Source: a virus
Virus record (IMG/VR): IMGVR_UViG_3300017760_000060
Span: 1 to 28,198 of that record
Reading direction: 5' to 3' (one strand)
DNA length: 28,198 nt
Part shown: in pieces, positions 732 to 15,076 of the stretch
Layout: each line of letters starts with the position of its first letter
How positions within the stretch are numbered: position 1 is the first letter of the stretch
Program-made: the position numbers and the translations under genes
The notes under the pieces: model-generated
Told to the model about the DNA's origin: nothing
Seen by the model: the letters and a program-made list of their open reading frames with translations, nothing else
The model's database searches: none

Positions 732-3700
732 TTATGCAGTTCGTTGGAACATGTAAACTGTTATGTAAGGTGGCATATTATTGTGGGGCTGACTTCCACC
801 AGTCGCTTCAATAGAGTTTAAGTCGTTAGCAAAGGTCTCTGCATCATCTTTATACAAGGCGGGTGCGAATTTCTGATGTTTATTGGTGCCACGATTATTT
901 CCTTTTACCCGGTGATTGTGACTTGGCATTTCAGCTACGCTTAATGTGTGAGTTTTAGCTCCACCAGTCTTTTTCGATGCATTAAAATCAGAATCATTTC
1001 CATTAACACCTACTAGAACTCGCCCAGCACCAAAAACTTGCCACGTACCAAAACCAAAGAATGTTCCAGGGTTGGTTGACACTACAGACGTATATATTAC
1101 TCCTACTGGATATATTCTTTTGAGAACTGCGAGATCTTTAGCATCAGCTGTATCTGAAGAAATTCCTGCATTTGGAGTTGGAATAGCGGAGATTTTATTA
1201 TCAACATAAGCTTTCGTAGCAGCATGACTACTAGCGGTTGGCGTCTGGAAACTTGGTTGAGTGTTTATTTTCGCGAAATCTGATGCATGAGATCCATCTA
1301 ATTTATCAGCATCTAATCCAGAAGCAGATCCATCATTACCAGCATGCCATATTTGATGTTCGGTAATACCGTTATTTGGTGTAAGAACAAAGTTACTATT
1401 ATGAGGAACATCGATTACGACTTTATCAGTGTGTATACCGGGCGGATCATTTGTTACACCAATAACAAGATCTGATTGTTCACCAGTTGTATTTCCATAC
1501 CCGCGAGCATGATATTGAATATATCCAAAATCAGAAGCATGATTAATATTAGTTCCATTCTGTTCAGATTGGAAAAAGATTCCACTTACACCTTCACTAC
1601 TACCTTTAAGTAATAAATTAGTACCGTTTTTTACATAAGTAGAACCACTTCTTACCTCTGCTCCAGGATCTACTGTTCCAGCGATAGTAAGAGCAGCAGT
1701 CATTGATTGATTTATATTGCCGGTCTTTTTTATGTAATTATCATCCGGGAATGTTTTTCCAATCTCAGCATCAACATATTTTTTAGTTGTAAGAGCTTGC
1801 TCATTAGCGTTGATAATAACTGCAGTTTGATCTGGAGCAATTACTTTACCTTTAATTTCTACTCCTCCAGTATAATCTCCTACATAATTAATAGTTAGCT
1901 TATCTCCAGTGCCATGAACAAGTGCTCTACCAGCATGTATATTTCCATCGGCTCTTGTAGTATTATATAGTTTAAAGTCTGTTCCAGTTAAATGTATGTG
2001 ACCACCAACACTTAAATGACCGCCTACAGTAGCAATATCATTAACATGTAAATTATAAGGAATAGCAACAGTTGTAGTGTTCCATTGTGGTCCAAAATCG
2101 GTGAGGTCTGTAGGAGCAATTTTCTTGGTATCAACATAATTTTTAGTGATTAGACTCGTTGAGAGCGTGCCTTCGGTAAATAATTTAACTTGTCTAGTAC
2201 TTGAATCGATTTCAATAGCAGTGAATTCTCCATTTACTGATTTAAAAGTATGTTGAGCTGCACTATAAATTGCTTTAGATGAATTTCCACTTGAGGTTTC
2301 TCCGCGTAATTCAATTTTGGCGCCTTGGCCATCAAGTAATAAGCCATTAGTCGTGCCGACTGTTTTGACATTTCCGTTAGTTGTAATAAGACTTCCTTCA
2401 GTACGAAAGTCTCCGCTATTACCATGAATTTTAGCAATTGTAGTTAATCCAGTCTTAAATAGTATGTCTTGAGTATCTCCATCGGATACGCCTACATGTA
2501 GGTCATTTCCTTTTTGAAGAATCTCATTTTGATCAATAGCAATTCCGTTAGAAGAAGAACCAATTAAAAGTGGCGGAGTATCAAAATTTGAACCAGCAAT
2601 TGTTGTAGATCCTTCAGCTGTAATATGTACTGGGTTAGAAACAGTTGTTTTTACAGAGCTAACTAAAATTTTAGATTCGTCTGTTGGTCCAGGAGAAAGA
2701 CTGATCGATCCTCCAGTATTGTTAATTGAAAGAAGTCCAGCTGTTCCTGTTTGTCGTGAAATTTTAGCTGAACCACTTCCTCCTGGTGTAAGAGAAATTA
2801 AAGCTGGTCCAGTTGAACTCGATAATCCAACTGCAAGTTCTTGTCCATATACGTCTAACTTGCCAGAAACTACTACATCTCCAGTTGAATTCCACTGTGG
2901 ACCAATATTTTCAACCTTATCACTTGTAATAGAATCATCAGCAATTTCTAATGTATTAACCGCACCATCAGATATGTGTCTGTTTATTATTGCATCGTCG
3001 CCTATACGTGATGGATCAAGCGGTCGTATACGAATATCAGCAAAATCTACATATTCTTTTGTTACAACTGATTTCTCTCCACCGGGCCCGGTCTCGATGG
3101 TACCTCTAGACATGTCACTGACAGTTACTACGCCGCTAATGTTTACTCCTCCAGTAAAATCACCTAAATGATTAATACTTAAGTTATCAGTACTTCCGTG
3201 AACAATAGCTCTACCTTCATGAAGAAGACCTGCTCCTCGGCTTGCTGCATTGTATATACTAAATGTCGTTCCTTTTTGTGAGATATTGCCAATAGCGTTA
3301 ATATTGCTAGTAACAGATAAAGACCTTGGAATATTTACTGCTGAATTATCCCATGATGGAGAAAGAGGTGGTGTTGCGCTTGATCCAGATAATTTAGCAG
3401 GAGTTACAGCTTCATCGATAATCTTATTTGTTGTTACCGCGCCATCGCCAATTTTATCTTCTGTTACAGCAGATTGCCCAATTTTTGAATTAGTCACCTG
3501 AAGTGGGGCAATTTTACTATTTGTTACCGCTCCGCTATCAATAAGTCCACTTGTAATTCCTGAATCTTTTATATTTAAACGATTGGTATCATCTTCGGTA
3601 TTAATTCTAAAGTGTTTAAGATTTACCTGATCCGTTCCAATTTTAGTATTACGGTCAACGGTAGTAAGATCGAATTCTTCTTCGATCTTCTTAAATGTAT

Positions 3701-4343
3701 TTAGTTCAGATTTAACACCATCTAATAAATTTATAAAATCTTGTGCAACTTCGGTGTTTAATCTGAAGTTAGCCAATACGTGAGAACCAGTTCGTAAATA
3801 CTCTGCATCAGCCGGAGTAAACGGTTGATTATTGTTATTTACATTTAAAGGAATACCTTTAACTTCATCGCCGAAATGCTCTTTAACTGCAGAATCAGAA
3901 TTATTAAATAGTAAATCTTCTTTATATACAACGTGTTCATCAACTGCAGCTGATGTAACTAACTTATCATCGGCATTCGTATTGCCGTTTGAAATTGTTT
4001 GTGTAGATGTAATATATCCTGCTGGAGCAATGTGAGTAAATGCTACATCATTATCTTCAATGGCATACTTTTGAATCCTGAGAGTTTGCGGCGTGCCAGC
4101 TTCATCGATGTATTCTAATGTGAAGAACTTATTACTTGGATTTGTACCAGTATTACGTTCTTTACCTTCAGTAATAATAAGACTTGTTACTTTTTCATGT
4201 CCTTGACCACTCGCAAAAAGTTGATCAAGCTCGATCTTATATGTCTGATATGCCCCGACAGTGCCATCAACGATAGGAAAAAATTCTTCGCCGTTAATAT
4301 CTGCTTGTATGCGAGCGGGTAATGATGAAATTTTTGTACTCAT
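732..4343 (-). CDS. Tail fibre protein with C-terminal collar domain (1203 aa)
   Basis: This is a long, Gly/Ser/Thr/Asn-rich protein typical of trimeric phage fibres. From the N-terminus it shows: a short attachment-like region; a run of degenerate AVTxxKI repeats (about residues 268-316); two related modules about 430 residues apart (around 353-400 and 784-829) sharing the pattern LYN...HAGRALVHG...GDYTGG; several TKxYVD fibre repeats; a T4 gp37-like segment AGNDGSASGLDADKLDG (about 1000); and a C-terminal tail collar domain with YPVGVIY (about 1073), FGFGTW, PSHNH (about 1138) and a terminal NNMPPYITVYMF motif. The collar domain is common in short-tail-fibre and receptor-binding proteins. 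A receptor-binding role is inferred. The gene lies between gp7 and gp8 and has its own late promoter. It could correspond functionally to T4 gp12 or gp10, but neither is recognisable along its length. Confidence 0.85.
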   Translation of the reverse strand: MSTKISSLPARIQADINGEEFFPIVDGTVGAYQTYKIELDQLFASGQGHEKVTSLIITEGKERNTGTNPSNKFFTLEYIDEAGTPQTLRIQKYAIEDNDVAFTHIAPAGYITSTQTISNGNTNADDKLVTSAAVDEHVVYKEDLLFNNSDSAVKEHFGDEVKGIPLNVNNNNQPFTPADAEYLRTGSHVLANFRLNTEVAQDFINLLDGVKSELNTFKKIEEEFDLTTVDRNTKIGTDQVNLKHFRINTEDDTNRLNIKDSGITSGLIDSGAVTNSKIAPLQVTNSKIGQSAVTEDKIGDGAVTTNKIIDEAVTPAKLSGSSATPPLSPSWDNSAVNIPRSLSVTSNINAIGNISQKGTTFSIYNAASRGAGLLHEGRAIVHGSTDNLSINHLGDFTGGVNISGVVTVSDMSRGTIETGPGGEKSVVTKEYVDFADIRIRPLDPSRIGDDAIINRHISDGAVNTLEIADDSITSDKVENIGPQWNSTGDVVVSGKLDVYGQELAVGLSSSTGPALISLTPGGSGSAKISRQTGTAGLLSINNTGGSISLSPGPTDESKILVSSVKTTVSNPVHITAEGSTTIAGSNFDTPPLLIGSSSNGIAIDQNEILQKGNDLHVGVSDGDTQDILFKTGLTTIAKIHGNSGDFRTEGSLITTNGNVKTVGTTNGLLLDGQGAKIELRGETSSGNSSKAIYSAAQHTFKSVNGEFTAIEIDSSTRQVKLFTEGTLSTSLITKNYVDTKKIAPTDLTDFGPQWNTTTVAIPYNLHVNDIATVGGHLSVGGHIHLTGTDFKLYNTTRADGNIHAGRALVHGTGDKLTINYVGDYTGGVEIKGKVIAPDQTAVIINANEQALTTKKYVDAEIGKTFPDDNYIKKTGNINQSMTAALTIAGTVDPGAEVRSGSTYVKNGTNLLLKGSSEGVSGIFFQSEQNGTNINHASDFGYIQYHARGYGNTTGEQSDLVIGVTNDPPGIHTDKVVIDVPHNSNFVLTPNNGITEHQIWHAGNDGSASGLDADKLDGSHASDFAKINTQPSFQTPTASSHAATKAYVDNKISAIPTPNAGISSDTADAKDLAVLKRIYPVGVIYTSVVSTNPGTFFGFGTWQVFGAGRVLVGVNGNDSDFNASKKTGGAKTHTLSVAEMPSHNHRVKGNNRGTNKHQKFAPALYKDDAETFANDLNSIEATGGSQPHNNMPPYITVYMFQRTA

Positions 4344-4362: not shown

Positions 4363-7300
4363 TTATGTGTTAATAGTAATGGTTGCTTCTGTTATTTTAG
4401 CTATTCCTACTGGACTAGTCGGCATAGGACTATCGTATTGTCCTTGAATTGTGTATATTGTACCATCTCTAAATAGCTGATCAAGTTCAGGCGTTGACGG
4501 TAAAGTTAGATCTGGTGATGCACTTGTATTTATAGCATTTCTCCAACCAACTAATATGCTGTTTTTACTATTTAGTGTGCCAACTACTAATCCCTCAATT
4601 ATAAGATTATTCCCATCATTATCTACAATATCTTGATAGACTGTATCTCCATGTTGAATTTGAGGACCGGTGTATGATGCAACATTTAGTTGAACTGGTG
4701 CTGATATATCATCATCCCTTGTAGGATCATTCCACCAGTTATCCACTAGATCATCAATAAGTAAACCAGCATCACCTTCAATGAATGGTGAAGAATCTCT
4801 TTCAAGGAATATTCCTTCATTCGCTTCAGTGTCTAACTGATTGCGCTTTCTAATAAGAGATCCAACATTCATAAAGACATCGCTATTATCAAGTGCATCT
4901 TTAATAGTGATAGGAAGATACGAACTAATGTCATCTATATCTTTGAACTTTAGATTTTGCTCGTAATCTCTCTTACTAAATTCTTTTTGTGGGACCAATG
5001 AAGGTATAACATACTTGAATGTAGTAAGAACTGCTCGCATAAACATCTCAGAGTTAACATCTTCAGTACTTCTATCTTGTAGTAAATACGCAGCGTCTTG
5101 TTCTTCAGTTCCAAATACACTTATGGTTTCATCTTTTCTTTTAACTTTAACTGCAATAATTGTTGCTGTTTTACTTGGGCTATCAACACTTTCTATAGTA
5201 CCGTCTTCGATAGATGTAAATCCACCAATTGCTTTAATTATTCCAGTAAATTCATTTCCATCTGCAGCTATAGTCGATATAATACCTCTCTTTTGTGGAA
5301 GCAATCGTTGAGGACTATTAGGATCATCTACATCTACTTCTGCAATACCCTGTACAATTACATCTCCTACTTCAAACGCGGCACCAGTATATGATTGTAT
5401 TCTAAATTCAATATCTCCAGTATCAAGTCCATCTTCGAAATATGAATATGTATATTTAGATGCTAAGTTATTTCCAGGAACAGATCTTGCTAACTTAGTC
5501 CATAGACCAGCTTCAAATATAAACTCTCTTACTCTTATATCTCCTTGCAACCAACCAGGTTGGAACATAGGCATATGATATCCACCTGTCTCGCTCTGAG
5601 AAGTAAGAGATTCAAGCCATCTCATATCTTCTAATGGTTGAGTAGTTCTAAATGGTGACAAGAATTTATCTTCTACCTTTAATAGATTATCATTTTCTCG
5701 AGTAACTGGATTAAATTGTATGAATTTAGGACCATACCAATGGTTATCTCTTATAACAAGAAGCATAACACTCGCAAAGAATCGAAGGCCAGCTGGATGA
5801 ACTAAATTTAAGAAAGTGCTTTCCCAATCAGATATCTTTAAGCCGCTTCGGATGTTATAAGAGAATTTCTGCCAAAAAATACTATCTTGAATACGATTAA
5901 CAGAGGATGCTCTTCCTTTTTTATTGTAGTACTTACCAACATAATCTAATGTATACTGATGACTCGTTTGAGCTTTATTAATAATAGTATCTGTTCTTCC
6001 ATCACCCCAATAAACTTCCTCTCTATCAATGTTTCCATTACCATAATCAACTGTTAATCTGATTGCAGTATTTTGTTTATCGTTTTCGTCTTCAGGATAT
6101 CTCATCTCTGGAGCATCGAATATTAAGAAAGAATTAAAGGCGTGACCATCTAAATTATCAAGTGTGAAATTCTTAGCTGCATCTGGCATAGAAGTAATTT
6201 TAGTAGCACCTGCTGTAGCTCCTTCTATTTTATCAAATACAATTTTGTAGAACTTCTTAACATTATTTTCAAAATATGTTCTAGCTCGCTCTGCCGAATA
6301 TATATTTAAGTCTTCTGTATAGTATTGAATATGACTAATATCTCCGTTATAATATCCGCTGCCATTTCTACCAATAATAAAATTTGCTTCAGGAGATATG
6401 GTTAGATGACGAATAGTATTTCCTTCTATTATTCTTTCAAACACTAATTCTTCTTCTGAGTCGTTAGATACCGCTATATCGACATAACCGTTATATCTAT
6501 CAGCCTTTCCTTTTACAACAATTGTATTAAATCGGTTAACGCTAGCTGTTTTTATGGGTGAACCGGAATCTGCATATACTGCCTCAGCTGACGGTGTTGA
6601 TATAACAAAATCAAGGATATATTCATTAATACTTTTATAAAAACCAATAGGATTTCCTTCTTGATCATAATTGTATTCTATTATCGGCTTTTCTGTTGTT
6701 GTCGAATATATAATACTAGGAAATGCAAATGCAGCGCTATATGATGGAGGACGATCAACGATTTTCAATACTCCACTCGAATCTAACCTTCCACCATACG
6801 AACTTACAACATCAAAGCCTTCATCGGGCTTAATATATGGAATAGATCTAATAGTGTTATCTGATATTTTTTTCCAAATATCATACTTAACATTTGTAGA
6901 ATTTGCTGTTGTAAAAAATTCAGAATTTGGACCGTTTAGTATTTTATTAACACTATCTGGTTCTAATGAAACTGCAAACATGTCATTATCATTATCAACT
7001 GCAATATTTACACCGTAGTTTAAGCCTACCTTAAATTGTTCTTCATTAGTTTGAATAAATTGTTCTGTAGGACTAAATACACTATTTAATTTCCACGAGC
7101 TGCGCGAAGCTGTGAATTGACTTCTGATATAATAAAGTTTTGGCACACTATTATGCTGTGACTTATTATATACGTCGGAAAAATTATATTGGTTTACAAA
7201 TTCTTTTGCATTGTTTAATCCTCCATTTACTATAAGCAATTCATCACCAAAGAATTTGTATGAGTATAATCTTGATCCGTTATGAGTAATATAATTGTCT

Positions 7301-10300
7301 GACTCATTGATTATATCTGAGCCAACACTTGTGACAGATTCTATAGTATTATAATAATTTTCCCAACTTGTTGCTGAGACCTTTTCCCAAATATTAATAC
7401 CGCAATCAGTTACCTTTACAATAATTGTTCCGGACTCACTTAATTCGAATTTTCCTCCATCGAGTAAGGAGTTAATACCAGTTGTAATACTTTGAGTATA
7501 ATTACTCGATAGCTTACGTTCTATTGCTTCAAATTCGGTGTGATTAAGACCTTTATTGTATAAAGAAAGGTGAGAGAATGCAACGTTTCCGTAAAGAGTT
7601 AAACTCGATTGAGATGTAATTCCATGTCTAGAATAAGAAGAGGCATCAAACCTATCTGTTATAATTTCAAGTGATTTAGATCTTTTAAATCCATTAAGTG
7701 AATATCGTAATCCGCTAATTAGGTTTGCGGCATCTTCTGTAAATTCAATTGTTAAGTTATTCCATTCTTCTTGTAGTATTTCGCTATTAAAATATTCATC
7801 ACTAAATATCTCAAGAGGATTCTCATCAAGAATGATATCATCATTAGACTTATCTAAAGATACCGACCATGGTGTTTTTCCGGTTTCTTGGTAAGAAAGC
7901 TGTAGCTCTCTCTTTTGCGTTAATAGATTATTAACTACTCTTAAAGTAATATTCCCTATTTTTAATATATTTGTGTCTGATATTAAATTTTCTGCATTAA
8001 ATCTTAAAGATAAAGAAAATTTGTTTGAAGGAGAAAATCCAAGACCATCACCAATAAATGTAGAAGGCGATTTAAGAATAATACCAGTATCACTTAAAGG
8101 ATTTTTAGTTATACTACTCGATACAAATTTACATCTTTTATCAGTTGATAACCATTCTCCATTATTTGCATTCTGATTGATATTAAATTCTAAATCAGAA
8201 CTAATATTACGTGAATATACCGGAGGAAGATTTAAATAATCTTCAGATGACCATCGACCGTCTTCTCCAATATTGTACACTTGAATAACCTGCGCGATAT
8301 CAACATTATTAAATGTATGGGTGCCAACTACAATTTGAGAATGGTTACTTTTAATATGAGCAAAATCTGCAGATCCTAAATGTGTAGATGGAAGATTTAA
8401 CGACAATGTCTGATAAAAATTATAACGATTATATTCATCTACTTTAAATATAACAAGTCGAGATGCACCATTTACAGGTCGATCTAATAAAATAAGATAA
8501 TCTCCGTTAATAGCATAATCTAAAATATTCCACAATCTTTCTTCATCATAAAGAGTTGTATCACCGATTGTGATATCTTGCCACGGTGTATATGTACCTC
8601 CGTGTTTATAAAATATAGACATGTATCCTCTATTGTGTAAAGTAAATAGATGACTGCTGCTGCGTTTAATATGATCACAATGTGGTAAAACAGGAAGACT
8701 TTTATCTCCTGGTTTATTTTCTTTATACCAAATTATACCAATATCAAACGGCTCTGCTGTCGCGAAGTCAGCATTTGACATCCACTCGCTATAATATACT
8801 ACCTTATCCTCAGATTTTATTGTAAATCTACTTTGACCTGAATTTAAAGCATTTTTCTGTGAATGAATAAACGTAGAAATAGTAGAATCGAGTGCAATTT
8901 GGAATGCTTCTACCCTACCATGATTAGAGTTAGCTGATCCAGTGTCGCCTCCAGGAGCTCCTACAATAACTCGTGTACCGTTACCATTTATACTTACATT
9001 TGATCCAGCATAATCCAAAGCGTTAAACCCAGAAATATCCGAACCAACTTTTATCCAATCCCTTAACGAAGTTGAATAAGCGAAAGCTGTAACTTTTCCA
9101 GATTCTCTCCCGCCTTCATCATTAGCAGGCGCGCCAATAGCAATAACATTTCCATCTGTATTTAAATGAACACTGGCCCCAAACATGTCACCAATATTTT
9201 CTCCTTCAAGGGTTTGACCGAATTCAGCCCATTTTCCAATAGAATTGAGTGAATAAATTTTAACTTGTCCTTTAAATGATAGGTCTGGATCTAGTCCACC
9301 AAGTTGTCCAAGAATACCAACTGCAAACTTCGTTCCATCATTACTTAAACTTAATGGTACTTGATTTTTGTCATAAGCTGAAATAAACGTAAGATCATCT
9401 CCGAGTTGATTCCACACATCAGTATTTTCTTCGTTGTAATATGCTCTTACAAGCATTACACTTACACCAAAATCGTCTATCTTGTGTGTTCCAATAAGAA
9501 GAGTTCTTCCATCATCACTTAGTCTAACAGTGTTTCCAGCCAATGGATCACTACCCAATATACTAATGCCTTGGGCACCTATTTTATTCCATGCACTACC
9601 ATCGTATTCAAGAACAAAGGTTTCATTTGCAATTCGATCTGGAATTCTAAGACCGATATGTTTAGCACCATCAATTTCTCCAAATTGAGGATTTATGCCA
9701 GTCTCTAAACTGTAAGAATTTGAAGTGAGCGTTGGTCCACTTCTTAAATAAGAAATAGCTGTTGAAGTAATAGAACTAATTTCAAATAGTCCATCATACT
9801 GATGTGATGCTCCGCTTACATATACGTGAGTAGCCGATGTGTTAAATTCATTTTCTGCTCCTGCGGTAATAGTGACACTTGTTCCATTTGCAACAAGTGT
9901 TGGAACTGGATTCGGACTTAATTCTGAGATGTCAGAATTAAGAGTACCATCGATGTTAATCCATGGATAAGCTGGAAGAGTATTTCCATCACCGTCTGTA
10001 ACACGAGAGAACTCATGAGTTTGCACATTACGGTAACTGCCTGAGTTGGAGCCACTTGTTATCAACTCTGTTTCATAATTAACCCATGCGGAGAATGCAG
10101 GTGTACCGCTCTCGCCAGTATCGCCTTCAACAATTATTTCGTGGCCAAGGTCATCATCATTAAGCCAACTGTATTGCCCAAATCCCTGCGGAGTCGTGGA
10201 GGTGAGGGTTTTAGTATATGTACGATTGTCAAAGACAAAACTAGTAACAGCTGAATGACTATGACCATAGACTCCACCAAATCCATTAAAATCTTCTAAA

Positions 10301-12669
10301 AGAAGAGCTTTACGTTCTTGAGTTCCAATATCATAGTCTACGTTAGGCTTGGCACCTGAACTAATCGCTACACGATCACCAGCACCATTTAAACTAACAT
10401 TCGCCCCTAACTTACTATCTAAAACTCCTCCTTCGATATCAGAACCACGCTGTGTCCAGTTTCCACTGATTAACTCATATACTTTTACTGTTCCAATATA
10501 ATTTGGATAGACTATGTTATCGACAAGTTGCTGTACTCCTTCTTTATGGGGAGCTCCAATAGCAAGAATATTTCCAGCAGAATTTAAACTAATGTCACTT
10601 CCTAAAAGATCACCATAAGCCTCGCCATCAATATCATCTCCAATTTGAACCCATGTATTTGCGTCAGGACCAATTCTTAGGCGATCACCAAGGCTAATTT
10701 CAGTAGCAGCGCTTAGTGTATAAGTTTGATAATATATTCCACTGCCTGCAGGAGACTCGAACGTGGCCGATACACTAACAATTTTAATTTCATCATCTGC
10801 ACCAAGTATAGGTAGTCCGGCTCCTGATATAACCATGCCAACCTCTGGTACAAAATTAGGGCTAGAAGGATCTTCCTCTAATATTACAGTTAACGACGTC
10901 GAGGGCGCAGTCTGAGTAATACCAACACTAGCATTACTTAATTCGTATACTCGTACACTTCCAGAATTCGTACCTCCACCACCATCATTATGAGCCGCTC
11001 CAATAGCAAGTATAAAACCATCTTCGCTCAGAGCATTTACACCGCTATGATCATAGATTGCCTCTCCGTAAATTGATTGACCAACTTGTAAATTATTTGG
11101 ACCGTTAAATGTATCTCCGTCAAACTGATAAAACTTTAAATCATCCTCTGTAAAAAGGGATAGCGATGGATCATTTTCATGGACAAACACTTGTTTATTG
11201 TTAAATGGTATAAGTGTTTGTTTCCACTTTCCATTATAGTTTCTACCTAAAGGAGATAAAAACGAATTCATATGATCGTATTCGGCACCTTCTAATGAAC
11301 TTAAACCAATAGAGGTTTCATCAATAAAATTAGAAAAAAGGTATGATTCTCCATCAGCATCAAGTTCAATTTTTATTTCATTCGTATCAACAAATGATCT
11401 ACCGATTTGACCTGTCGTCTTATTAAAAAATAACTCGTGAGAATGAAGATCTTCGTAATCCTTTGATAAAGAAAACAAAGGTTGAATCTCAGTATTTTCT
11501 TTATTAAATCTTGGAAATGAACGAATAATAAATGTGTGTTCTCCAGTATCGAGAGGAATAGCAGGATTCTCGCCGATGTCTCCAAAATCAATATATGAAC
11601 TAGTACCATTAAGTTTAACTAATTTATCAAATTCGTTAAAGGTAGCACCTTGACTAAAGTAACCTCTTAAAAGTTTATTCAGTCTAGTAGAATCCCATGT
11701 ATTATCATCTATATTTAATGATTTCTTTGAATCTAAATCGATCACTAAACCATTGATGGGCGGTGGTGTATCAAACAATATAGTTTCTTCAACACGAATA
11801 ATATTGCCTGCTCCTAATACTATATTATTATCATTTTTAATTTGGAATGGTGTCCAATTATATTCAGCCCCTAAATCTTCAAATGAAATAGATGCAGTAA
11901 GAGATCGAGTATATTCATCGCTTGCTTTTTCCCAACCACCGGAAGAAAGTTCAAATAATTTTTCTCTTGGATAAGAAACCTCTATAATTTCATCAAAGAA
12001 TAAGCGGAAAAATGTTGTAATACTTTCTTCTGAACCCTTAAGCGTATAGTACTGTATAATTTTTTTATACAGAGATACTCTATCCATTACATTCGAATCA
12101 GGAATATTTTTAGCGATCTCTCCCTGAATTCCATCTAAATATTTAGTTGATACTTTATCAATATCGTGTTCATCAATAATACGATTTGTCTCATATGTAG
12201 GAAGGCCAGTAGTATTAAGATGTTCGTAGTAATCTTTAATTAAAGTTATGAATCTTTCTGAACTTCCTCTTAGCTGACCAGGAATAAGCTCTTCTACGCG
12301 AAGAGATTCTGTATTTGCTGCATTATTATTAAACGGATCAAAGTCTCTTCCATTTGACGCGATTGCAATAACCGGTTGTGATTGTGCAGTCGAAATATTT
12401 GTATATGAAATTATAGTATTAGTAACATTATACGTTGCATACTCTTGATACATGTAATTACCATAATAACTTTCAGTAGGAGGATTTGTGACTGCGTGAT
12501 TTATAGAACCTTCCGGCATATAAAACACTTCATTGTCTAATCCAATGAATGTATGAACATGGTATGATCCGTCGATTAGTGACGGATTCGTATAAAGCGG
12601 ATAAAAATAACCAGTAAGTCCGGTAGTATTCCCACTATTGCTCTGACCTTGTAAATAATAAACTGACAT
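4363..12669 (-). CDS. gp7: Giant baseplate wedge protein gp7-like (2768 aa)
   Basis: Assignment to gp7 rests on position directly after gp6 and on conserved ends typical of marine T4-like gp7. The N-terminal part (about 130-250) has RFITLIKDYYEHLN and YTLKGSEESITTFFRLFFDE. The C-terminal part (about 2270 onward) has FWQKFSYNIRSGLKISDWE, HPAGLRFFASVML and HWYGPKFIQF. T4 gp7 has 1032 residues, so this one is about 2.7 times longer. The extra length includes lectin-like (LamG/concanavalin) stretches near 350-390, 1545-1720 and 1975-2133. It also includes a propeller-like array near 540-1245, with repeated motifs such as LNSAGNILAIGAPHKEG, LNTDGNVIAIGAPANDEGG and INGNGTRVIVGAPGGD (FG-GAP/beta-propeller type). 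gp7 is the wedge scaffold that links the peripheral baseplate to gp6. The inserted modules suggest an added surface-binding role, which is inference. No promoter or Shine-Dalgarno is visible in the 11-nt gap to gp6, so it is probably cotranscribed with gp25 and gp6. Confidence 0.82.
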   Translation of the reverse strand: MSVYYLQGQSNSGNTTGLTGYFYPLYTNPSLIDGSYHVHTFIGLDNEVFYMPEGSINHAVTNPPTESYYGNYMYQEYATYNVTNTIISYTNISTAQSQPVIAIASNGRDFDPFNNNAANTESLRVEELIPGQLRGSSERFITLIKDYYEHLNTTGLPTYETNRIIDEHDIDKVSTKYLDGIQGEIAKNIPDSNVMDRVSLYKKIIQYYTLKGSEESITTFFRLFFDEIIEVSYPREKLFELSSGGWEKASDEYTRSLTASISFEDLGAEYNWTPFQIKNDNNIVLGAGNIIRVEETILFDTPPPINGLVIDLDSKKSLNIDDNTWDSTRLNKLLRGYFSQGATFNEFDKLVKLNGTSSYIDFGDIGENPAIPLDTGEHTFIIRSFPRFNKENTEIQPLFSLSKDYEDLHSHELFFNKTTGQIGRSFVDTNEIKIELDADGESYLFSNFIDETSIGLSSLEGAEYDHMNSFLSPLGRNYNGKWKQTLIPFNNKQVFVHENDPSLSLFTEDDLKFYQFDGDTFNGPNNLQVGQSIYGEAIYDHSGVNALSEDGFILAIGAAHNDGGGGTNSGSVRVYELSNASVGITQTAPSTSLTVILEEDPSSPNFVPEVGMVISGAGLPILGADDEIKIVSVSATFESPAGSGIYYQTYTLSAATEISLGDRLRIGPDANTWVQIGDDIDGEAYGDLLGSDISLNSAGNILAIGAPHKEGVQQLVDNIVYPNYIGTVKVYELISGNWTQRGSDIEGGVLDSKLGANVSLNGAGDRVAISSGAKPNVDYDIGTQERKALLLEDFNGFGGVYGHSHSAVTSFVFDNRTYTKTLTSTTPQGFGQYSWLNDDDLGHEIIVEGDTGESGTPAFSAWVNYETELITSGSNSGSYRNVQTHEFSRVTDGDGNTLPAYPWINIDGTLNSDISELSPNPVPTLVANGTSVTITAGAENEFNTSATHVYVSGASHQYDGLFEISSITSTAISYLRSGPTLTSNSYSLETGINPQFGEIDGAKHIGLRIPDRIANETFVLEYDGSAWNKIGAQGISILGSDPLAGNTVRLSDDGRTLLIGTHKIDDFGVSVMLVRAYYNEENTDVWNQLGDDLTFISAYDKNQVPLSLSNDGTKFAVGILGQLGGLDPDLSFKGQVKIYSLNSIGKWAEFGQTLEGENIGDMFGASVHLNTDGNVIAIGAPANDEGGRESGKVTAFAYSTSLRDWIKVGSDISGFNALDYAGSNVSINGNGTRVIVGAPGGDTGSANSNHGRVEAFQIALDSTISTFIHSQKNALNSGQSRFTIKSEDKVVYYSEWMSNADFATAEPFDIGIIWYKENKPGDKSLPVLPHCDHIKRSSSHLFTLHNRGYMSIFYKHGGTYTPWQDITIGDTTLYDEERLWNILDYAINGDYLILLDRPVNGASRLVIFKVDEYNRYNFYQTLSLNLPSTHLGSADFAHIKSNHSQIVVGTHTFNNVDIAQVIQVYNIGEDGRWSSEDYLNLPPVYSRNISSDLEFNINQNANNGEWLSTDKRCKFVSSSITKNPLSDTGIILKSPSTFIGDGLGFSPSNKFSLSLRFNAENLISDTNILKIGNITLRVVNNLLTQKRELQLSYQETGKTPWSVSLDKSNDDIILDENPLEIFSDEYFNSEILQEEWNNLTIEFTEDAANLISGLRYSLNGFKRSKSLEIITDRFDASSYSRHGITSQSSLTLYGNVAFSHLSLYNKGLNHTEFEAIERKLSSNYTQSITTGINSLLDGGKFELSESGTIIVKVTDCGINIWEKVSATSWENYYNTIESVTSVGSDIINESDNYITHNGSRLYSYKFFGDELLIVNGGLNNAKEFVNQYNFSDVYNKSQHNSVPKLYYIRSQFTASRSSWKLNSVFSPTEQFIQTNEEQFKVGLNYGVNIAVDNDNDMFAVSLEPDSVNKILNGPNSEFFTTANSTNVKYDIWKKISDNTIRSIPYIKPDEGFDVVSSYGGRLDSSGVLKIVDRPPSYSAAFAFPSIIYSTTTEKPIIEYNYDQEGNPIGFYKSINEYILDFVISTPSAEAVYADSGSPIKTASVNRFNTIVVKGKADRYNGYVDIAVSNDSEEELVFERIIEGNTIRHLTISPEANFIIGRNGSGYYNGDISHIQYYTEDLNIYSAERARTYFENNVKKFYKIVFDKIEGATAGATKITSMPDAAKNFTLDNLDGHAFNSFLIFDAPEMRYPEDENDKQNTAIRLTVDYGNGNIDREEVYWGDGRTDTIINKAQTSHQYTLDYVGKYYNKKGRASSVNRIQDSIFWQKFSYNIRSGLKISDWESTFLNLVHPAGLRFFASVMLLVIRDNHWYGPKFIQFNPVTRENDNLLKVEDKFLSPFRTTQPLEDMRWLESLTSQSETGGYHMPMFQPGWLQGDIRVREFIFEAGLWTKLARSVPGNNLASKYTYSYFEDGLDTGDIEFRIQSYTGAAFEVGDVIVQGIAEVDVDDPNSPQRLLPQKRGIISTIAADGNEFTGIIKAIGGFTSIEDGTIESVDSPSKTATIIAVKVKRKDETISVFGTEEQDAAYLLQDRSTEDVNSEMFMRAVLTTFKYVIPSLVPQKEFSKRDYEQNLKFKDIDDISSYLPITIKDALDNSDVFMNVGSLIRKRNQLDTEANEGIFLERDSSPFIEGDAGLLIDDLVDNWWNDPTRDDDISAPVQLNVASYTGPQIQHGDTVYQDIVDNDGNNLIIEGLVVGTLNSKNSILVGWRNAINTSASPDLTLPSTPELDQLFRDGTIYTIQGQYDSPMPTSPVGIAKITEATITINT

Positions 12670-12680
12670 AATTTTTAATT

Positions 12681-14645
12681 CTAATAACTAGAATTATTAG
12701 ATGGTGGGTTATTGCTAGCTGGTGCTGTGTAAGTGCTACCACCGCTTGAAGATGCGCTGCTGCTTGAACTACTACTTGTACTTTGAGGTGCCGAATTGTC
12801 GGGACGCTGCCTTGCGAAAGGAGTATAGTCATTGACACCTGAAGAACCAGCAACTGCGATCGTATCAACTTGTGGGGTAATAGTTGTTCTTCCGATATCG
12901 ATTGAAAGAAGTTTATTTCTTTTTGATACTATATCATTTGAAGCTGGAGTAACAAATATTTTTAAAGTTTCGGTTTTATTAATTGGTAAACTGTCAATTG
13001 ATAGTACACCAGTATCGGTGTTAAGTGTTCCTACATTGTTAAATACAATTCTCTTAATTTTGTCTGCTCCAGTTGTGTATGCATATATACGTCGTTCGTT
13101 ATTAGAACCAATTATAGGTGCATCTTCTAAGCTAAGAGATACCGCATTATATGTCCACGCATCTGAATAAAGTGTTGGTTCTTCTTGACCAGGATCACAG
13201 AATAAACCCATTTGAAAATCAACAGGAGTAGATGTTAGTCTACCGTATTCAAGCTGCACTTCTTTATACACATAAACTCGAATAAACGAATTTATAATTG
13301 CAACATCTAAATCATCTATTAATCCAAGTAACTGAGAATAGCGAAATACTCCATCAAACTTTTGTAAATAATTTACATTGAAATCAGCCAATAATTCTTC
13401 TACAAGGGTAGAAAGTTGACCTGTTGATAGCGATGTTCGGTTTGAATCGTATTTAAATAAAACATCTAGATAAATATATGTGAAATCTGGATCAATGAGA
13501 ACAGGTTCAATACCAATAACTCGTTTCGACTCAAGTTCTTTGAGTAAATATACTTTATCTAAATCAGACAAAGCTTGTGCATCATACGGCTTAACTGATG
13601 CGTATACTTTACCATACTGAGGAGGATCATTATCTTCTCCACCCCATACTGATACTGTTTCGATGTTATTTAAAATCTGATTAATTAGCGTTTTATAATC
13701 TCCTGAAGTAACAGCTCTATTTTGAGTTATAAACGATAGCGGTGCATTTTGTCGAATACTTTCAATGTTTTCTTTTTCACTTCCATTAGTTGCTCCGGAT
13801 AAAGTGACAATAGTTGGTTCAGCTGAACCTGGGCTTTTCCATTCAAATACATTAGCTCCATTACCTTTACTTCCTTGAGTACTTAAATATTTAATTTTAA
13901 TTACATTAAGAGATGCAGGTTTTTTACCAAAGATATTATCTCCAAATTGAATTTGATAGTTGCCGTTATAATTTTCATTAATGAAATATGCAGCAGTCGA
14001 TGGACCAACATTCGAAAGACTTTCAAATAAAGAATATGTCTCAACAGCTGTAGAATATTGATTGTCAAATACATCAACTATTATATGATTTAAATCAATA
14101 TTAGTATCCTCGATAATATATTTCTGTTCGACATTACCAGACTCAACAACAAAGGAGATTTCTTTCATTTTCCCTTGATATATGTCAACACTATCAAAAA
14201 CATATTGTCCAGTAAGTTCATCGAGAACCGCAGTATAATCATCTACTGTTATAAATGTGTATTTTACATTATCGACCGAACAGCTAAGCGTTTGTCCCTT
14301 ATAAAGTGTATATGTTGAAAGATTGCGATTAACAGTTCCGTCAAATGTTAAAGAAATATTTGCCATTGCTGCTGACCTACTTCGTGGAGTATATCCTAAA
14401 AGCTTTGCTCGTGAAACAACATTTGCTCTAATTTGAGCAGAATCAATGAATGATTCGTTCATTGCGTTATGCGCTACCACTGCATTATAATGCGTGTTAT
14501 ATGCAAGTATGTCTAAAAGCTGGTTAAGACCAGAACCTTCAAAATCCCAATCTTTATAATGACCGCTCGGATCATTTTTAAAATAGTTTTTAAGATTTTC
14601 TTTGATTTGATCAAAGTCTAGTTCTGTAACATTAAGTTGTTTCAT
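12681..14645 (-). CDS. gp6: Baseplate wedge protein gp6 (654 aa)
   Basis: The length is close to T4 gp6 (660 aa). The N-terminus has the characteristic family block: FDQIKENLKNYF, then LLDILAYNTHYNA, ESFIDSAQIRANV and LLGYTPRS within the first 90 residues. A baseplate-J-like core follows. The last 35 residues are a Ser/Pro/Asn-rich low-complexity tail (a run of SSSSSSS near 630), absent from T4 gp6 as far as I recall and probably disordered. gp6 forms the dimeric ring that holds the inner baseplate wedges together. Its ATG overlaps the gp25 stop codon by one base (TAATG at 14647-14643), which indicates translational coupling. Confidence 0.92.
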   Translation of the reverse strand: MKQLNVTELDFDQIKENLKNYFKNDPSGHYKDWDFEGSGLNQLLDILAYNTHYNAVVAHNAMNESFIDSAQIRANVVSRAKLLGYTPRSRSAAMANISLTFDGTVNRNLSTYTLYKGQTLSCSVDNVKYTFITVDDYTAVLDELTGQYVFDSVDIYQGKMKEISFVVESGNVEQKYIIEDTNIDLNHIIVDVFDNQYSTAVETYSLFESLSNVGPSTAAYFINENYNGNYQIQFGDNIFGKKPASLNVIKIKYLSTQGSKGNGANVFEWKSPGSAEPTIVTLSGATNGSEKENIESIRQNAPLSFITQNRAVTSGDYKTLINQILNNIETVSVWGGEDNDPPQYGKVYASVKPYDAQALSDLDKVYLLKELESKRVIGIEPVLIDPDFTYIYLDVLFKYDSNRTSLSTGQLSTLVEELLADFNVNYLQKFDGVFRYSQLLGLIDDLDVAIINSFIRVYVYKEVQLEYGRLTSTPVDFQMGLFCDPGQEEPTLYSDAWTYNAVSLSLEDAPIIGSNNERRIYAYTTGADKIKRIVFNNVGTLNTDTGVLSIDSLPINKTETLKIFVTPASNDIVSKRNKLLSIDIGRTTITPQVDTIAVAGSSGVNDYTPFARQRPDNSAPQSTSSSSSSSASSSGGSTYTAPASNNPPSNNSSY

Positions 14646-15076
14646 TATCGTAAGCGTTGTAAGTAAAAATTAATTTCTTCTCTTTGTTGGGATGATATAA
14701 TATTAAAGCCGATTGTTACTTCATATGAGTTTCTTTCTGAGTTATCTATTACTTCAACAGTGTGTCCCTGTGTACGTGGCTCATATGCTTTTAAAACATA
14801 TAATATTTCTTCTTTAATAGCATTTGAAGTAAAGGTATCTGCTGGTTCAAATAGTAATGCTGTTACATTTGAACCAATCTCAGGATGAAATGGTCGTTCG
14901 TCAAAGTTGGTTAGAATTAGATTCTTGACTGCGTGTTTAACTGCGTCTAAATCCCTTATTGATGGTATATCTTTTGTATTGGGATGTCTATCAGTAAAAA
15001 ACAATGGAATGTCACTATAAAGGTTTTTACGTGCAACCTTTTCGCTTTGACTTAAATCTGATAATCTATTTGACAT
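14645..15076 (-). CDS. gp25: Baseplate wedge protein gp25 (143 aa)
   Basis: The size fits the gp25/gpW family (T4 gp25 is 132 aa). Family features include DLDAVKHAVKNLILTNFDE followed by RPFHPEIGSNV and LLFEPAD around residues 43-80, then a beta hairpin region ending in NFYLQRLR. gp25 sits in the inner wedge with gp6 and gp53 and seeds sheath polymerisation. It was once called a lysozyme in T4 but has no known catalytic site. The start is fixed by a late promoter octamer 6 nt upstream. The gene is the first in a gp25-gp6-gp7 unit. Confidence 0.9.
   Translation of the reverse strand: MSNRLSDLSQSEKVARKNLYSDIPLFFTDRHPNTKDIPSIRDLDAVKHAVKNLILTNFDERPFHPEIGSNVTALLFEPADTFTSNAIKEEILYVLKAYEPRTQGHTVEVIDNSERNSYEVTIGFNIISSQQREEINFYLQRLR

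Follow-up and report, generated by a model that had tools for sequence, protein, structure and literature searches.

The window, as we call the whole 28,198-nt stretch analysed here (virus record IMGVR_UViG_3300017760_000060, positions 1-28,198), carries along its minus strand a series of other baseplate genes followed by gp25, gp6, gp7, a 1203-aa gp10/tail-fibre-like frame and gp8. The gp7 frame (12669..4363, minus strand) has no internal stops and directly follows gp25-gp6, and the presence of gp6 immediately upstream anchors its identification. The genes around it are as follows:

14645-15076: gp25, upstream of gp6
12681..14645, minus strand: gp6 baseplate wedge (PHROG 219, E 3e-150; Pfam Gp6-like_1st), immediately upstream of gp7
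4363..12669, minus strand: gp7 (BW3) baseplate wedge protein, one open frame of 2768 codons (2768 aa)
732..4343, minus strand: 1203-aa tail-fibre/gp10-like protein (Pfam Gp10_C, E 2e-33; tail-fibre PHROGs), immediately downstream of gp7

Window gp6 is nearest to the gp6 of Methylophilales phage Melnitz and of pelagiphages (35%), which places the phage among T4-like phages near the marine Kyanoviridae. The phage group with a giant gp7 is T4-like and known from environmental DNA alone. Other IMG/VR contigs carry a single gp7 frame of similar size directly after gp6: contig scans recovered full-length relatives of 2863 aa (L001), 2889 aa (L002) and 2924 aa (L004), and a scan with window residues 1263-2044 added relatives of 2673 aa (L085), 2318 aa (L086/L095) and 2321 aa (L091/L092/L094). 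All of these large relatives share the same synteny, with gp7 lying between gp6 and a fibre-like gene; in L002 the gene that follows likewise encodes a tail-fibre-like protein.

The frame was identified with a gp7 profile built from seven short (minimal) gp7s with the window sequence excluded, so that the search was non-circular. Every frame in the window, in a 13-kb region of T4 and in other phages was searched with the profile, together with shuffled sequences, and E-values refer to this small set of 724 sequences. It matched one frame per genome, always the one following gp6, with E-values of 2e-39 for the window, 5e-43 for HTVC008M, 4e-41 for Mosig, 2e-35 for Melnitz, 6e-15 for S-SM2 and 2e-11 for T4 gp7, against 0.45 for the best unrelated frame and more than 2 for shuffles. 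Within the window the profile found only this frame, in two parts (residues 124-254 and 2247-2305), bearing out the gp7-like ends that an earlier note on this DNA had recognised. By the sequence of its two core halves, the frame is a genuine gp7 of the T4 type, the wedge protein called BW3 in contractile tails.

Marine T4-like phages (pelagiphages and cyanophages of this type) have been said to lack gp7, with VrlC replacing it (PMC7029224). VrlC was unmatched by the gp7 profile, which matched the frame after gp6 instead. On this sequence comparison the published statement looks wrong and should be corrected, since a gp7 core sits right after gp6 in HTVC008M, Mosig, Melnitz and S-SM2. In the records used here for Melnitz (L080:14842-17532), Mosig (L081:14840-17464) and HTVC008M (L082:14849-17899), the frames are annotated as hypothetical or structural, yet contain the gp7 core.

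From N- to C-terminus, the features we assign within window gp7 are the following:

12415..12669, minus strand: residues 1-85, a small N-terminal module (GYFYPLY..HVHTF..FYMP..NH) that is mobile among tail proteins and missing in L086/L091
11908..12333, minus strand: first part of the gp7 core, residues 113-254, homologous to T4 gp7 about 649-759 (PHROG 17744, baseplate wedge)
5935..11907, minus strand: residues 255-2245, the ~1,990-aa insertion, in the place that domain V has in T4 gp7
11374..11742, minus strand: residues 310-432, probably the first half of a LamG/ConA-like domain that is split, by alignment with L010 and a joined-halves test in L010
8881..11088, minus strand: predicted seven-bladed FG-GAP beta-propeller, residues 528-1263, from repeats, profiles and model
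10666..10923, minus strand: residues 583-668, a small optional insert in blade 1 that L085, L086 and L091 lack
9670..10293, minus strand: exchanged cassette, residues 793-1000 (~210 aa), between predicted strands 2 and 3 of blade 3
8230..8700, minus strand: beta-rich stretch, residues 1324-1480, possibly three blades of a second propeller (twelve predicted strands of middling confidence, without profile support)
6820..8232, minus strand: residues 1480-1950, conserved only within the large-gp7 group
6241..6606, minus strand: residues 2022-2143, probably the second half of this split domain of LamG/ConA-like type, from Laminin_G_3 matches at the equivalent place in L010 and L002
5407..5934, minus strand: second part of the gp7 core, residues 2246-2421, homologous to T4 gp7 from about 858-895 onward

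The extra material lies at one site. The 323-325-aa gp7s (L016-L029) align to window residues 125-254 and then straight to 2246-2304, and because the core halves are contiguous in these minimal forms (254 joins 2246), the ~1,990 aa can be assigned to a single insertion, in keeping with the earlier estimate of well over 1500 extra residues. T4 gp7 is split at the same point: its matched parts cover 649-759 and 858-895, and Pfam Gp7_5th (domain V, 766-861) fills the gap. Since Gp7_5th lies between the T4 core halves, the extra residues of the window take up the domain V position. At 149 loci, complete frames following gp6 were between about 320 and 4156 aa long. The insert at the gp7 site is missing from the 323-aa forms; it measures about 90 aa in Ochrobactrum phage OC, 360-510 aa in pelagiphages and Melnitz, 625-940 aa in L013, L015 and L173, about 1,990 aa in the window and about 2,200 aa in S-SM2. 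Residues 1263-2044 form a block that is well conserved among relatives (about 50-60% identity, with stretches up to 80%). Searches of the whole gp7 protein against the PDB with phmmer/hmmsearch returned no match. Elsewhere in the set, one gp7 frame after gp6 matches the beta-barrel domain of a phage endosialidase (E 4e-6), another module of the host-recognition type in gp7.

The small module at the N-terminus, of the form GYFYPLY..HxHTF..FYMP..NH, occupies other places in other tail proteins (L034:6068-10327, L036, L012, L013, L014, L015, L023), including the C-terminal part of gp6 in L023 and its relatives, fibre-sized frames, and residue 658 of L015 gp7. From its sequence it looks like a mobile, possibly metal-binding (HxH) unit. 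In the gp7 of L001, L002, L004, L008 and L010 it is preceded by a low-complexity Ser/Thr-rich leader of up to ~60 residues (MSYHSSSG...), which is absent from the window and L085.

The insertion contains a repeat array for which the earlier note had counted at least seven units at about residues 540-1245. We find exactly seven (528-579, 673-734, 738-790, 1027-1080, 1086-1143, 1147-1199 and 1205-1259), and the same number in every large form tested (window, L002, L085, L091). A blade profile made from L091 alone recovered all seven window repeats at 210 bits (best of 200 shuffles, 6 bits), and profile self-alignment of residues 500-1265 gave an off-diagonal E of 1e-14. Pfam FG-GAP_2 (PF14312) matched window gp7 at 27.9 bits against a cut-off of 23, and exceeded the cut-off in 6 of the 11 records tested. 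An AlphaFold model of residues 515-1714, built with four sequences, had a low overall pLDDT of 43.9 with confident blades (blocks of ~70-87), and VIA-align matched residues 528-1263 (model residues 14-749) to seven-bladed propellers at Z 28-30. We relied on VIA-align because the top rows of Foldseek have poor rmsd, low-confidence parts of the model being included there; the VIA-align matches listed are without T4 gp7, which has no bearing either way. The repeats are thereby shown by prediction to form one seven-bladed propeller, in keeping with the propeller-like modules that the earlier note had seen in the letters.

Integrin alpha head pieces ranked with the best structural matches, at an rmsd of 3.5-3.7 over about 345 residues (Z about 28, ~16% sequence identity). 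Integrins alpha-M, alpha-L and alpha-X, with their inserted alpha-I domain, resemble window gp7 in having a seven-bladed FG-GAP propeller that carries an inserted domain. The integrin I domain lies between blades 2 and 3, whereas the window cassette lies within blade 3; the likeness is one of fold only, and we claim no shared function. In a further gp7, of 1541 aa (L113:11857-16479), the core halves at 395 and 794 flank a separate, distantly related FG-GAP propeller (74.4 bits), and the gp7 site therefore seems to have received a propeller more than once. We found no description of a gp7 with FG-GAP repeats or a propeller in the open-licence literature.

The cassette lies in a blade-3 loop of the predicted propeller, where the flanking strands of the AlphaFold model (766-770 and 1017-1022) are the second and third of the blade; the cassette itself was modelled with very low confidence (pLDDT about 25). 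Window and L002 are 94.7% identical in nucleotides inside the cassette and 67.0% outside, with a blastn segment at 9632-10409 of 90.9% identity. At fourfold-degenerate sites they agree at 90/95 positions inside and 314/535 outside (Fisher p about 7e-14). A second cassette type shows the same pattern between L004 and L085, which share 92.5% of nucleotides inside and 69.4% outside, and 79/84 against 297/547 fourfold sites (Fisher p about 5e-14). Because the identity extends to silent sites inside the cassette, it shows recent transfer and not protein constraint. L001, otherwise the nearest to L002 (77% aa), carries a divergent third cassette type, and L086 and L091 keep the propeller with the cassette absent. 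The same cassette has thus been exchanged in two independent events between otherwise diverged phages, and, with coinciding borders and four different contigs involved, chimeric assembly would hardly explain both. Such exchange is the pattern expected, from sequence, of a specificity module. A cassette-only search of viral contigs found it only inside these large gp7s.

Laminin_G_3 (PF13385) positions 66-150 match residues 645-736 of L010, a mid-size gp7, at 26.1 bits, and positions 55-148 match L002 at the equivalent place with 16.6 bits; both matches correspond to window residues of about 2022-2120. When the flanking parts of L010 were joined, the match reached 31.0 bits (cut-off 27.6) over profile positions 12-150; the second part alone gave 26.7 bits and the first part alone no match. 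Window gp7 had no PF13385 match, whether whole, by halves or joined, and the AlphaFold model of L010, made for the LamG question, had a mean pLDDT of 33. Window gp7 probably contains one LamG domain, split by the propeller block and recognised only through relatives. The propeller block itself would then probably be inserted into a LamG loop, giving a nested order of core, LamG, propeller, cassette, and again propeller, LamG and core. Of three lectin-like stretches proposed from the letters, this one, probably split, is supported indirectly, and the other two found no profile support. Residues 1480-1740 and 1940-2250 gave no lectin match in profile searches against Pfam and PDB sequences, and the lectin reading of 1480-1740, made by eye, was dropped as unproven. 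A second propeller assembled from 1324-1480 plus 1735-1950 was also set aside, as the strand pattern was its sole support and profile self-comparison shows no repeats there.

The 1203-aa tail-fibre/gp10-like protein downstream is a candidate rival for receptor binding. Within its gene, window positions 1293-2138 are 89% identical in DNA to L087 and 84% to L004, above their surroundings, and form a second exchanged segment; gp7 is therefore not alone in showing exchange here.

T4 gp7 (BW3; PDB 5hx2, 5iv5) shares with window gp7 the two-part core in the same order, the gp6-gp7 gene order and the presence of additional sequence where the core divides, in T4 the domain V of about 96 aa. It differs in having about 100 aa at this site and other domains N-terminal to the core, which starts at about 643, whereas in the window protein the site holds about 1,990 aa and no more than about 110 aa precede the core; a Pfam scan of T4 gp7, unlike that of the window, found no FG-GAP repeats. 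The gp7 of Synechococcus phage S-SM2 (YP_004322253.1, 4156 aa) has its core split at the same site by a longer insert (about 2,200 aa), but carries a YHYH domain, no FG-GAP match and a long C-terminal extension. A functional precedent comes from the herellevirus Vp4, a Bacillus phage: its wedge protein BW3, Gp119, bears carbohydrate-binding modules and is reported to decorate host cells, and a module-free homologue does not (PMC11406892). Gp119 differs from window gp7 in its size (831 aa), its type of module, its Gram-positive host and in not being a T4-type gp7, and is not known to have a propeller or an exchanged cassette. With this precedent and the giant YHYH-bearing gp7 of S-SM2, a wedge protein is a less unusual place for receptor-binding domains than the earlier note had supposed.

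Taken together, we favour, with a probability of roughly 0.6, the reading that this is a T4-type gp7 with a ~1,990-aa insertion at the domain V site, in which the propeller serves as a platform and the exchanged cassette as the host contact that sets specificity. In known baseplates gp7 (BW3) forms the wedge with two gp6, and receptor-binding proteins attach to BW3 (PMC10811340). With six gp7 copies, six propellers would be arrayed around the baseplate periphery and turned towards the cell, the cassette on a loop face of each being the contact part. Replacement of the cassette by recombination would alter the contact and leave the wedge core unaltered. Binding by gp7 would supplement the contacts that the tail-fibre-like neighbour makes, or take their place; being covalently part of gp7, the binding module could relay the contact directly to the wedge that triggers contraction. 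We infer that direct host-surface contact by propeller and cassette is the likeliest function. Receptor-binding modules at the baseplate rim are made more likely by the exchanged cassette in the propeller and by the independent propeller at the same gp7 site in L113.

Within a virion, contacts between proteins can be mediated by FG-GAP and LamG domains as well. The insertion might be structural, with propeller and LamG as platforms on which the neighbouring tail-fibre/gp10-like protein and other fibres dock, the cassette being exchanged together with matching fibre parts. The anchoring of receptor-binding proteins by BW3 in known baseplates (PMC10811340) fits such a role, as do the gp10/tail-fibre-like gene after gp7 in the window, its tail-fibre-like counterpart in L002 and the 84-89% exchanged stretch in the fibre-like gene. 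The partners differ, however: the window cassette resembles that of L002 and the fibre stretch resembles L087/L004, so there is no paired exchange in this case, and the fibre gene is retained in some relatives without the cassette. We regard docking as a serious but doubtful alternative. An extension of our favoured reading, in which gp7 itself is the main or co-equal receptor-binding protein, with six covalent integrin-like propellers, a swapped specificity cassette and no separate fibre needed for the signal, seems to us rather unlikely; if true, it would unite receptor contact and contraction trigger in one polypeptide.

Relatives with inserts of anything from zero to about 2,200 aa, and with different modules at the site, could also mean that modules pile up at a tolerant position and act as passive spacers or decorate a larger baseplate, without binding any ligand in particular. 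Conservation of the 1263-2044 block and of the seven-blade number in every large form tested speaks against this, and that one precise segment, the cassette, has been exchanged repeatedly argues that it is under selection; we consider a passive role improbable. The length is unusual for a gp7, and the earlier note had raised an assembly artefact or a fusion of separate genes. The same frame, order and neighbours recur in at least 6 distinct contigs from different samples, as a single frame in relatives of 2318-2924 aa, and cultured S-SM2 has a 4156-aa gp7, which leaves an artefact with a vanishingly small probability.

Large gp7s were already present in public records (S-SM2, annotated as gp7), and wedge proteins with binding domains were known; the single insertion site at the domain V position, its propeller and the exchanged cassette are not described in the literature we found. 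These results point to the domain V site of gp7 as a defined place where marine T4-like phages insert probable host-facing modules, from none to more than 2,000 residues, and host-range evolution becomes testable on one exchanged cassette.
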